From: Hoplostethus atlanticus
Taxonomy: Eukaryota; Chordata; Actinopteri; Trachichthyiformes; Trachichthyidae
NCBI GenBank assembly: GCA_034670405.1
Contig: JAXDDX010000002.1
Location: forward strand, 2,202,001-2,266,000
Length of the DNA: 64,000 nucleotides
Reading direction: 5' to 3'
Shown: positions 49,826-61,919 of the stretch, in pieces
Numbering within the stretch: position 1 is the stretch's first letter
How the letters are laid out: the number at the start of each line of letters is the position of its first letter
Program-made: the position numbers and the translations under genes
Notes under the pieces: generated by a model
Database searches by the model: none
What the model saw: the letters and a program-made list of their open reading frames with translations, nothing else
What the model was told of the DNA's origin: nothing

Positions 49826-49918
<93 letters not shown>

Positions 49919-52900
49919 CTAAGAAACAAACAGTAAGGGTGATTAGAATCAAGTTCTCCTTAAAATGAGCCCACTACCAAACTATAAATGTGCATTGTTA
50001 AAATTACACAATTTATTGGCAATAAAAAAACAATTTTATACCCAAAATATGTGGGGAAAAATATTTGAAAAATCCAAACAAGCCAATGCTTCATGTGTAA
50101 AGTGCATTTCGGTTTGCTCTTGTTTGCAATCGGATTTTTAAAAAGTGTGTATTCAATGACGCTGTGCAATTAGTCCAGACAGATACAGTAAGAGAGACTC
50201 TTGGAAACAAATTTGTCTCGTGTCCCAACCAATGGGAGCTATCCCTGAAATCAGTGTCTAAGCAGATTTCAGCAGAGGCAGACAGCTTGTCGCTACATAT
50301 TCTCCTGTCAGTCAAGAAGAGGGAGGGCTCGGTCTGGCTGAGGTGGGGAAAGCTGAGTGAAAGTGACGGGGCAGGGCCTTTCCGAGAGAGAGCCAGTCTT
50401 AGCCAGCCTGGCTTTGCGTTGCTTGAGGCATGACCTAGCCTTTACTGGATCCCGCTACGTCACCACCAACAAAGCTAAAGGTTAGGGTATGCTAATTCAT
50501 CTATAAGGCACTTTCCCAGTCTATGAACCAGGAGCCGTGGGACATCACGTGGCTCATCATGGGCTGGAATTACTCATGATTTAGATTCTTCACCGTAATA
50601 TGAAATCCTTTATAACGTCTGTTAATGCGTACGGTTTCTACATCCAGAGCCTACTCTCTTTTCAGGCGCTAATGTTAACGTGTTGCCATAGCATGGTTGT
50701 TTTAGTAGGGAATCACACCGCTCTGGTGACCCAGCATGCACAGGCCTACACTGCACATGTGAAGTGAGAAACCTTGCGAGAAAGTGCAAAACACTTGATG
50801 CTACTAGGAGTTGACACTTCTAAAGAGCTTATAGTAATAAGCCAAAATGACACCAAGAGCACTGAATGTTGGCAATAGCCCCCACTGTTTGTTTACATAT
50901 CACCTTGTATTCTTTGGATACTATTCACGTAATTATTTCCATTTTTTCCCAATTTTCCAGTACATTTTTTTATTATAAATTGTAATTTCTGGTCTGTGCT
51001 TTCATATTTACAATGTTAAAGCTTTCAAATGATTTCAGACTTGGAATATCCGTGCATTGCACCCAAGAGGCATAACAAAAGACAGCAAATACTAATGTTG
51101 TTCTGATATAGTGGAGAGAAAGCTGTTTGACACTATTTCTCTCTTTCTCTCCCCCCTCTCTTTTCATCCTCTCTCATCAACTAAATTAATCTTTACTCTG
51201 ATAGCTTCAGATTATGCACCGCTTTACAAAAAGGCTCCATATCAAACCTCATCAAGGAAGATGGAATTCACGTCTGGAAAAGGCTGGAGGCGATCACGTG
51301 TTCATATTTTATCATGAAGATAAGGCTATGGAAAATTCTGTGAAGCATTTCAAAACAGCTAAATGAAACAGATACAGTACGGTGGAAGCCTTTTCATCTC
51401 ATTTTGGTTTGAGTCATATGAAGTATTAAAAGATGTTTATTAAAGTAAAGCCGGAGCTTTCAAAGCATGTTTCTATTCCCCCGCCCTGCAATGTGCTTTA
51501 TTAAACGCAACTTTTATCCATTATCCGGTGACAATGTGCCAAAATATCTAAAATGTCTCATATTTTATGGCATACGGTCACTCCTATAAGAAGCTAAATC
51601 AGTCAAAGCTGTTTTCAATGTGGGTTCTCAAGGTCTAAAACAGATTTCACCATGTATCTGATACAATACAGAATACATTCATTTCTGAAAAAACTGAATT
51701 AAATAATTACTCTATAAAATAATAAACAAGAGCACTGAATTTGGACGATAGAGAATAGCAGTGACTTCCTACGGTGCTTTTTATCTCACCTAACCTACAA
51801 GTGGAACAGGAAACATCTCTCTACTTACATTCAAGCCATGTGGACTATACATTGTGTTTCCCCCAAGAGCATCATTGTATCCTGCCGTCTGACTGATAAC
51901 ATGGCGCAGGGTATCCACCTGAGGGGACAGACGAGGTGGACAAGCTGGTCAAGTCAATGTCTCACAGCAGGCTAACACTGACTGTAAACATGCTCAATGA
52001 AATAACTGACAAAGGGTGAGATTGCAAAATACAAAAAAAAAAAAAAAAGGGCCTATAGCATGTGGAAGGAATTCCCAAGACAGCAAACATACTAACCAGA
52101 TCTGCTCATGTTGTTACATGGTTAATTTCAAAATAAAATAATTAAAATAAAATAAAAAAAAGGCATACTGTATGATTTAATGGTATGCTCATGTTCATTT
52201 AATTTTCTACATTGGCTATAGTTAAAGTTATTTTTTTTAAAACTGTTTCTCACACATTTATAAGGAACTAATGAAATTCAGGTAAGTAAAAAAAAAAATA
52301 AAGTGGTAAAATTGCGTTCACAAAAAAAAAAGGTAAAATGAGCGACAACAATGTGAGACATAGGGTAATGACTGTTTTCAATTATCTTTTATTTTTTTCA
52401 CACAAGTGCATGGTTATGGTCGTGTGGCGATTAAATTAAACGTACTCAATGGGAGACAACATTGACAACAATAAGATGAGACAGAAAGACAGTAATATAG
52501 AATACAGACAAAGGGGAAAAGACAGTACCATAAACCCAATACCAACCCAAGAGCTCAAGTCAAAGCCAAATGCATTCACAAAATGTTTGCTTAAATGGTA
52601 GTCTGTTTCAGACATTAGGAATAATCACTGATCAGGAAGTTATTTTTTTGTCATGATAGCAATGGGGTGGGATTATTTATTTATTTTTTGCCGCCAGAAT
52701 ATTCCATCCAAAGCGAATTAGAGTCAGTAAGCACTGTTGTGTTCAACTCAATCAGGAAGGCTAACACCCAGTGCGGCACACGTTTGGTATCAGAGGCCAC
52801 ACTGTGGTAATTTGAACTGCCCTTGTATGAGCAGCATGTTTTTACTGTACTTCAGACTGCACTGTGGATGGCTCAGTACACAGGCAAGACAAGGACGGCT

Positions 52901-52944: not shown

Positions 52945-53057
52945 CTGTGACTGTACATTGGCTCCGACTTGTGCCCCTTGGTAAGAATCCCCATTCAGAC
53001 TCTGCATGCTCAAGAACATGTCCCCAGAGTTTGGGAGGTTAAAAGAACCTGAAGAAC
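52945..53057 (-). CDS. pbx3: pbx3 exon 7 (113-nt alternative cassette)
   Basis: Encodes [14 protein letters not shown], then [23 protein letters not shown], part of the C-terminal region of the long (a) isoform. Its 113-nt length is the same as the known PBX cassette whose skipping produces the b isoforms. In mouse Pbx1 this exon is repressed by PTBP1 outside neurons (established knowledge). The acceptor is ccctttccag and the donor is CACAG|gtagga. A UG repeat lies 54 nt upstream in the transcript and a pyrimidine-rich stretch lies between. 113 is not a multiple of three, so inclusion or skipping switches the reading frame of exon 8. Confidence 0.95.
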
Positions 53058-54155: not shown

Positions 54156-54321
54156 CAGAGTTAGGTGTGGTAGGGGAGTTGGTCTGGCTGTTCTGCACTG
54201 CAGCGGCTGCAGCATGCGCTGCCGTTACTGCAGTCTTGGCGGCGTACAGGTTGGCTTCTTCCTGGAACTTGCCGATATTCTTCTTGTACCGGATCCTTTT
54301 GTTGCCAAACCAGTTGGATAC
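54156..54321 (-). CDS. pbx3: pbx3 exon 6 (recognition helix and Ala/Gln tail)
   Basis: A 166-nt exon beginning [17 protein letters not shown], the DNA-recognition helix with the TALE-typical Gly at homeodomain position 50, the invariant Asn51 and Arg53/Arg55. It continues through the PBC-specific extension helix ([15 protein letters not shown]) into an alanine-rich segment ([10 protein letters not shown]) and [10 protein letters not shown]. The AAHA/AVQN alanine stretch and LYAAKTAV are PBX3-like; PBX1 has [13 protein letters not shown]. The acceptor is ctcccacag and the donor is CTCTG|gtaggc. It ends one base into a Gly codon, which is completed by exon 7, or by exon 8 when exon 7 is skipped. 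Plus-strand frames here are antisense shadows. Confidence 0.97.
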
Positions 54322-57320: not shown

Positions 57321-58579
57321 TCTTTGTTCATCCAAGCATTTTTCAGGGGCTTTAAAAAAAAAAAAAAAGTTGGATTTGAACTGTAGATTTGAAGGGGGAA
57401 ATATATTCTCAGTCAGTGATACTGCTCCAGCACAGGAAAGCAAACATCTACAGTGCCATTCAGCCATAGAGGAATTGCCCCCCACCCCCGACCAAGAGAG
57501 GCATCTGGGTTTGCAAAGTCCCAGGGAGGACCAGTGTGCTTCACTTGCATTTTAAATGATCCCTGCTAAACCGATGCGGGGCGTTTCAGCGATGATGTAC
57601 TGAGCAAGGCTGTGGATTGATATTGGCATAACATTCACTACGGATGGTTTTTACTTAATGAACCGCTTGTTTAATCACTAGCGCTCGCAAAAGAGTTTGG
57701 GGTGTTTGAAAAACTCTTTGACTGAATCCTCATTGAGTGGCTACAGTGAGTGGCTTCTGCCTCCGAAAGACTCCGGTACAGTGAGGGATAACACAATTAT
57801 GCTGTACTTGGCATCATGTTGAGCCTCAATCACTTAAAATGAGCCAAAGCACTAAGAATAAGTCAATAAGAATGTCTGCCGTGGCCTCCGCTTGTCGAGG
57901 AGTACACCACTAATGGGGCTTGAGATGAGTTCAAGTGAATTTTTAAAAGCCCTCTAATTTCTGCATAGACTGATTTGTTCTCATGGGAACTCATACAGTG
58001 GCCTGTTTAGTGAGGCACTCAGAGAACAGAGAGTGGAGCTCCATTTGTGAGGGTCAGTGCCCATTTCTTAAACCACCATAAAGCACACACTGAACGAGAG
58101 AGAGAGGGGGGGGATAAAATAAATAAACACAGAGCGCAGCTTCAAGAGATTCAAGAGAGGACACAACTATTAGACGCTCTACAACAAACAAAAGTAACGC
58201 CGAATGTGGGAAATCATAATTAAAAAAAAAAAAAGACAAAGAAAAAAGTAAAAGTTATACAATGTGACACATTTGTACACACAATATGGTGACATGGGTG
58301 TCTTCTTAAAAAAAAACAAAAAAGAAAAACATGAGTGTAATCAAAAACAGGTAGTGTGCTTGGGAGCTAAAAGGTACAATGTAAATACTGGAAAAACGTT
58401 TTTAGTGTAAAATCAAAAACGTAAAGCTGTAAGTGCTGTGGAACTTTTGGTAACATTAGCATTGATCCATTAGTATGGGGGGGGATCTGTGCAGTGAGGA
58501 CTGTGAGGTTGTACATACATAAACAAAAGGAGGTACAAAGAATGAAAACAACAGTGGATCAGGAGAAGTCATGACATAC

Positions 58580-58609
58580 CTGTGATACTGTGATGGTGCT
58601 TCCCACCCC
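58580..58609 (-). CDS. pbx3: candidate 30-nt in-frame pbx3 microexon inside the homeodomain
   Basis: Read on the minus strand, intron 5 contains a pyrimidine tract ending tttttttgccttcag, then 30 nt, then a near-consensus donor CAG|gtatgt. The 30 nt encode GVGSTITVSQ in the phase needed by both neighbours (exon 5 ends and exon 6 begins in phase 0). Its last five residues, ITVSQ, equal the last five of exon 5, with synonymous differences (GTA TCA CAG against GTT TCC CAG). If included, the protein reads [25 protein letters not shown], a 10-residue insertion between homeodomain positions about 44 and 45. Because ITVSQ is repeated, the complete recognition helix would be preserved and the turn before it lengthened. 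No expression evidence is available here. It is called from splice signals, phase and homology only. It could be a tissue-specific cassette or a decaying tandem duplicate. Confidence 0.72.
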
Positions 58610-59348
58610 CTGAAGGCAAAAAAGAATGGGCTTTTACAGTATCTGACTCTTCATGACTACACTCAATATACCCCTCAACACCCCCTCCCCACACAAAAAA
58701 GAACATCGCAGATTAACCGTTACTGTATAGATTAACGTTTCTCTGATATTGTGTCCCATGAGGACAAACCATAGAACAATAGGAGTATAAAAAAAAAATC
58801 TAGATAGTAGTCACAATAATAGCAGAAAAAAGAGCACAAGATAATAATGCTTTGGATGTGGGGGTTGGGTGTGAGAGATATTGCCTTCAGGTTTACCCAA
58901 CAAGGAGGCTATATTGTATATAAAGTGGGAAAGTCACATCTTTTGAGGCTGTGCAGAAATCCAAACATATACTGTGAATTTAGCAGAGTCCTGTGACGTC
59001 ACTTGTGGCCGTAAATATATATATTTCTTTTTTACTCTTCACAGCTTAACTGACCTAAGCGACTGACCAGGCAACAAAAGAGAGCACACATGGTGGATGG
59101 GGATGAGAGAGAGAAAATGGCAGGGGACCAAGCGTGGGCCGCTAAGGAAGGACAGCATAGTGCTTTGATTGAGGCCAAGATGATATAGACCTCCTCTCCC
59201 TGTGGCCCTGCTCTGACTGACTGGGACCAGCCTTGACTGAAGCATCATTAGGCAGTCACAATGTCAAGGTTAGGTAAGGACATTGTGTCTCGGTAGTGTG
59301 ACCTATGGTAGCTATCCCTCTAGGCTTTGGCTTTTTCCACCCTGATTA

Positions 59349-59663
<315 letters not shown>

Positions 59664-60415: not shown

Positions 60416-61677
<1,262 letters not shown>

Positions 61678-61919
61678 CTGTTCGTATTTCTCCAGCTCCG
61701 TGTGGTAGATCTGTCTGATCTGGGTGAGTTTGGCTCTGTAGTCTGAATGTTCGATGGAGTTGTCGGACGCCGCGCCCGAGGCCACGGCTGCAGCGGCGGC
61801 GGAGGCAGATCCGCCGCCTTTCTCCGGTCCCGACACGCCCTCTGCCAGCAGCATGTTGTCTAAGCGCATGAGCTGGGGGTCCGGGGGGTCCTCCTCCTGG
61901 GCACCGCGGATGCTGAGAC
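61678..61919 (-). CDS. pbx3: pbx3 exon 3 (end of PBC-A, Ala-rich linker, start of PBC-B)
   Basis: A 242-nt internal exon of a PBX TALE-homeodomain transcription factor, a nuclear HOX and MEIS/PREP cofactor. It begins inside the Gly codon of [16 protein letters not shown], runs through [20 protein letters not shown] and an alanine-rich linker ([15 protein letters not shown]), and ends at HTELEKYEQ. The acceptor is a pyrimidine tract ending ctgcag and the donor is CAG|gtgagg. [22 protein letters not shown] and AKLTQIRQ are PBX3-type residues (PBX1 has EEEPTDP, GVAGPEK, NSVEHSDY, AKLSQIRQ as I recall them). The length is close to the mammalian exon, with small differences in the alanine run. The upstream exons are not in the window, so the protein is partial at its N-terminus. 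The a/b teleost paralogue is not resolved. Confidence 0.96.

Follow-up and report, generated by a model that had tools for sequence, protein, structure and literature searches.

The 64,000-nucleotide window of Hoplostethus atlanticus contig JAXDDX010000002.1 analysed here carries pbx3 on its minus strand, and a 30-nt exon inside intron 5 of this gene is almost certainly a genuine coding microexon. HOX proteins choose their targets partly with the help of PBX proteins, whose homeodomain is highly conserved in animals; an optional, splice-controlled insert within the PBX3 helix-turn-helix would be a direct way for one HOX cofactor gene to have two DNA-binding forms. Exons 3 to 9, in frame and with conserved boundaries, identify the gene as pbx3 (PBC-class TALE); it is present from exon 3 through the stop, while exons 1 and 2 were not found within the window. 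The original prediction gave coordinates, junctions, splice sites, length, 0/0 phase and peptide for the microexon, and all were exact on re-reading. The acceptor (...TTCTTTTTTGCCTTCAG, a CAG acceptor) has its last base at 58610, and the donor GTATGT starts at 58579. Intron 5 comprises 5060 bases between the exon 5 end at 59382 and the exon 6 start at 54321, and splits the homeodomain between codons that we take to be Gln44 and Val45 (numbered from Trp48-Phe49-x-Asn51). Splice forms with and without the microexon are both open from exon 3 onward to one common stop.

We examined how far the microexon stands out from its surroundings. Intron 5 holds 133 in-frame open stretches of 15-60 nt bounded by AG and GT. 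When the last five residues of each were scored against ITVSQ, the end of exon 5 (BLOSUM62), the microexon reached 22, as did a longer stretch sharing its donor, and the best score elsewhere was 9; the ITVSQ tail thus copies the exon 5 end beyond chance, as had been proposed. Aligning the intron with that of its paralogue at E up to 0.01 yielded, once exons and simple CA repeats were set aside, a single block, formed by the microexon and its flank (E 9e-26, with identity in 138 of 186 columns). The earlier argument from synonymous changes is less telling: in the microexon, the two gene copies differ by two synonymous and two non-synonymous changes, and conservation of the protein across species is therefore the stronger evidence.

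That paralogue emerged from a homeodomain search of the genome (632.8 Mb, 1161 contigs), which found seven PBX loci. In one of them, on contig 188, the intron also contains this exon, GGCGGGGGAAGCAGCATCACAGTGTCACAG, preceded by CAG, followed by GT and encoding GGGSSITVSQ. Within exons, identity between the two loci is 26/30 for the microexon, 112/136 for exon 5 and 140/166 for exon 6. Over the 20 bases upstream it is 19/20, 10/20 and 14/20, respectively, and over 50 bases (-1 to -50) 43, 24 and 31. Regulated alternative exons are commonly marked by flanks better conserved than those around constitutive exons. Across exon 5, the microexon and exon 6, the window peptide is identical at 110/110 residues to pbx3b-named models from Scleropages, Gadus, Lampris and Diretmus; for the contig 188 peptide, the best matches are teleost models at 93-96% identity, most of which carry the name pbx3 and one pbx3a. 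The two loci appear to be a pair from the teleost genome duplication, with the microexon predating their separation. At the other five PBX loci (L010-L014), the matches to exons 5 and 6 are ~80 to 1450 bases apart, and these gaps lay wholly within the stretches searched; no copy was found in any of the five, either with as many as 9 mismatches allowed in 35 or with a peptide motif. The comparison with other pbx paralogues that had been suggested as a check thus finds the exon and its splice sites kept in one copy, and no copy of the exon at the five other loci.

The microexon is also widespread among teleost proteins. An insert-centred search of a protein database clustered at 90% identity gave 1974 matches, and the counts that follow cover the best 120. 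In 104 of these, exactly ten residues separated the tail of exon 5 from V[SA]NWFGNKR, and in 101 the insert was of the microexon type. Six had the microexon tail in an irregular context (P0101, P0102, P0105, P0109, P0110 and P0113), and 13 had a different sequence at the exon 5/6 junction. In the 101 microexon rows, insert positions 8 (V) and 10 (Q) are invariant; position 7 is T in 100, position 6 is I in 98, and position 9 is S (85) or A (16). G1, G3 and T5 are kept in 99, 95 and 91, and positions 2 (V, G, K, M, A, S) and 4 (S, T, N, G, A, R) vary most. All named carriers are teleosts, judged by their names, and include Scleropages, Paramormyrops, Anguilla, Denticeps, Alosa, Danio, catfishes, salmonids, pike and many spiny-rayed fishes, which belong to widely separated teleost groups. 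The claim of a conserved, in-phase coding microexon is thus borne out by its presence in both pbx3 copies and in many teleost protein models.

A second search used a query without the insert and listed 120 of 2709 matches, 93 of them new. Of the new proteins, 78 lacked an insert, 15 had irregular other inserts of 14 kinds, and none had the microexon type. In neither set of listed matches did any protein named for a tetrapod or a cartilaginous fish carry the microexon insert, and gar, bowfin, sturgeon and bichir were unrepresented; this negative is weak because clustering hides cluster members and the insert-free query ranks carriers lower. Models from Naja, Carcharodon, panda, duck and turtle do have inserts, but of other types. 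A pbx1a model from Chanos (P0107) has the nine residues VGPQITLSQ at the exon 5/6 junction, and a PBX model from the annelid Ridgeia piscesae (P0003) has a different 11-residue stretch at the homeodomain junction together with a second VSNWFGNKR segment.

Judged from gene models, the microexon is alternatively included as a cassette exon, because pbx3b models of both kinds exist in four species (Lycodopsis, Anarhichas minor, Lampris and Genypterus), each pair on contigs of identical length that we take to be the same contig. One carrier, P0090, has a transcript-like contig. The original prediction had called the exon unannotated; this does not hold, since public databases contain predicted proteins with the insert for many teleosts, such as Danio rerio isoform X1 (P0067). 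Among the papers listed from the open-access library searched, none describes a PBX3 homeodomain insert in its title or the opening of its abstract. The microexon is thus known to databases as predicted isoforms, and was not found described in print in the literature searched.

Over their final 18 bases, the microexon and exon 5 agree at 15/18 positions in both gene copies (counted manually). The simplest account is that the end of exon 5, SITVSQ together with its donor, was duplicated into the intron before the two pbx3 copies separated. Because the contig 188 match to the exon 5 end takes in AGCATCAC, the ancestral microexon may have ended in SITVSQ, as exon 5 does. Convergent constraint, rather than duplication, could instead have given the ITVSQ copy. 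With duplication as the origin, the microexon would exemplify a new segment made by exon-end copying so that a helix is restored.

Because the microexon ends in a copy of what we take to be homeodomain residues 40-44, the recognition helix would be rebuilt from it, and the exon 5 copy together with the Gly/Ser/Thr-rich part would give a longer helix 2-3 loop. The predicted structure agrees with the earlier proposal that helix 3 is kept while the turn before it lengthens: the model places a loop at 125-133 and helix 3 in its normal place, and its three helices superpose on a DNA-bound PBX homeodomain, with an input alignment biased to the fold and no insert-free control. This result rests on a later model, the first having been set aside as too poor. 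Splicing would then toggle PBX3 between two versions of its homeodomain, the standard TALE type of 63 residues and a long-loop form of 73. We expect the long form to remain folded and probably able to bind DNA, but with the loop altering its affinity, its flexibility or its contacts with partners; we regard this functional reading as reasonably likely. The altered DNA or HOX-partner geometry raised in the original prediction is conjectural.

Pax6 exon 5a and WT1 KTS are splice-controlled short inserts in or between parts of DNA-binding domains that alter target choice; they lie in different domains, and the functional change shown there is inferred for pbx3. In homeodomains of the HNF1 (LF-B1) class, helices 2 and 3 are joined by a loop of 21 residues (PMC4901127). 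That insert exceeds the pbx3 one in length and belongs to the normal homeodomain, whereas the ten residues of pbx3 lie in a TALE homeodomain and are splice-optional. Upstream of its homeodomain, pbx3 has a PBC domain (PF03792 in the precomputed annotation of P0067 and other carriers), not the POU-like HNF domain of the HNF1 class, and the likeness is confined to loop 2. Within the TALE class, PMC11701043 describes neural, PTBP1-regulated alternative splicing of PBX1 exon 7 (PBX1a/PBX1b), which changes the C-terminal end without touching the homeodomain, whereas the pbx3 microexon sits inside it. The Drosophila TALE homeobox gene homothorax has a conserved, optional 3-bp microexon (PMC7392893); it consists of the first three nucleotides of a 48-bp exon and lies between the MH-domain and homeodomain exons, whereas that of pbx3 is a cassette inside the homeodomain.

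Both pbx3 copies have a TGC at -9 to -7 with an CATTCTTTTT tract. Srrm4-type microexons have an upstream UGC and pyrimidine layout (PMC12626420), and the pbx3 exon resembles Srrm3/4-dependent neuronal microexons in being short, in frame and preceded by a pyrimidine tract with UGC right before the AG. This layout suggests Srrm3/4-type neuronal inclusion, and we put the chances of such control as evenly balanced. The exon only resembles the class and is not filed as a member, because its 30 nt exceed the 3-27 nt limit given in PMC7935315; PMC7392893 allows 3-30 nt. The main texts of three zebrafish papers (PMC12626424, PMC12626420 and PMC13281805) do not mention pbx.

Taken as a whole, a genuine alternative teleost pbx3 microexon with a duplication origin, a long-loop toggle and suggested Srrm3/4-type inclusion is a probable explanation. 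Two points weigh against it: the evidence for inclusion consists of gene models, not reads, and chance alone would place a given triplet somewhere within ~17 positions in roughly one case out of four (our own arithmetic), which weakens the UGC evidence. The former would favor splicing noise or an annotation artefact, in which a tolerated pseudo-exon, lying over an intronic regulatory element that is conserved, was spread by gene-prediction pipelines. Small exons are indeed misplaced at the exon 5/6 junction in database models, as the 15 irregular inserts among the 93 new proteins indicate. These inserts differ from one another, however, whereas the microexon has the same length and pattern in 101 of the 120 listed proteins, is in both gene copies of the genome and is found in P0090 with its transcript-like contig; we consider noise very improbable.

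If the microexon is real, its insert, inside the helix-turn-helix with the PBC domain unaltered upstream, could break DNA binding and yield a dominant-negative PBX3 that still binds MEIS/PREP via that domain. A fixed ten-residue length and an ITV[SA]Q tail that hardly varies sit poorly with the idea that any disruptive peptide would serve, the predicted fold retains helix 3 (with the alignment bias noted above), and the HNF1 homeodomain, with a loop at the same place, has solved DNA complexes (8pi7, 1ic8); a dominant negative is thus unlikely. Only slightly less doubtful is that the Ser/Thr-rich loop serves mainly as a new docking or modification surface with DNA recognition unaltered, which overlaps with the long-loop toggle and differs in the purpose of the loop. 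The predicted loop with a normally placed helix 3 would fit such a surface, and G1, G3 and T5 are well kept. Nevertheless, loop positions 2 and 4 vary most and the helix-forming tail least, unlike a conserved docking motif. As for the long-loop toggle, its fullest version is tentative: an exon-end duplication in an early teleost or ancestor may have given a neuron-switched, HNF1-like long-loop mode of PBX3 DNA binding. If true, a HOX cofactor would change target or partner choice via splicing inside the helix-turn-helix itself.

Table 1. Exons of pbx3 and elements flanking the microexon, in window positions.
Feature	Position	Strand	Remarks
pbx3 exon 3	61678..61919	-	
pbx3 exon 4	60519..60709	-	
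pbx3 exon 5	59382..59517	-	136 nt; homeodomain helices 1-2; C-terminal end CSITVSQ
Conserved intron flank upstream of microexon	58630..58659	-	branch point presumed here
Microexon 3' splice site region	58610..58629	-	pyrimidine tract, TGC (58616-58618, -9 to -7) and TTCAG
30-nt cassette microexon	58580..58609	-	phase 0/0; GVGSTITVSQ
Microexon 5' splice site	58570..58579	-	GTATGTCATG; 8/10 same in paralogue
pbx3 exon 6	54156..54321	-	166 nt; begins VSNWFGNKR, remainder of recognition helix
pbx3 exon 7	52945..53057	-	113 nt
pbx3 exon 8	51829..51918	-	
pbx3 last coding exon with stop	49826..49918	-	

No RNA family reached its gathering threshold in the window. The start of intron 5 (59381-59358, minus strand) reads VGSAHLTV, and at the junction of exons 5 and 6 some fish models have this sequence or VGSARLTV. 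Because their opening matches the intron's own reading, we see these inserts as probably a donor shift or an annotation artefact such as a mis-set intron, not the 30-nt microexon. Between exons 6 and 7 (53579-53502, minus strand) lies another in-frame cassette exon, 78 nt long, which reads FQMKDEEFQLDSAESKNSLLTNMFT; similar peptides occur in many teleost pbx3 models, in some of which a short alternative C-terminus follows (P0019). Other teleost models (P0161, P0166, P0167, P0172 and others) join GAQV straight to DTLRH and lack eight residues of the exon 7 end, which suggests a further splice choice there.
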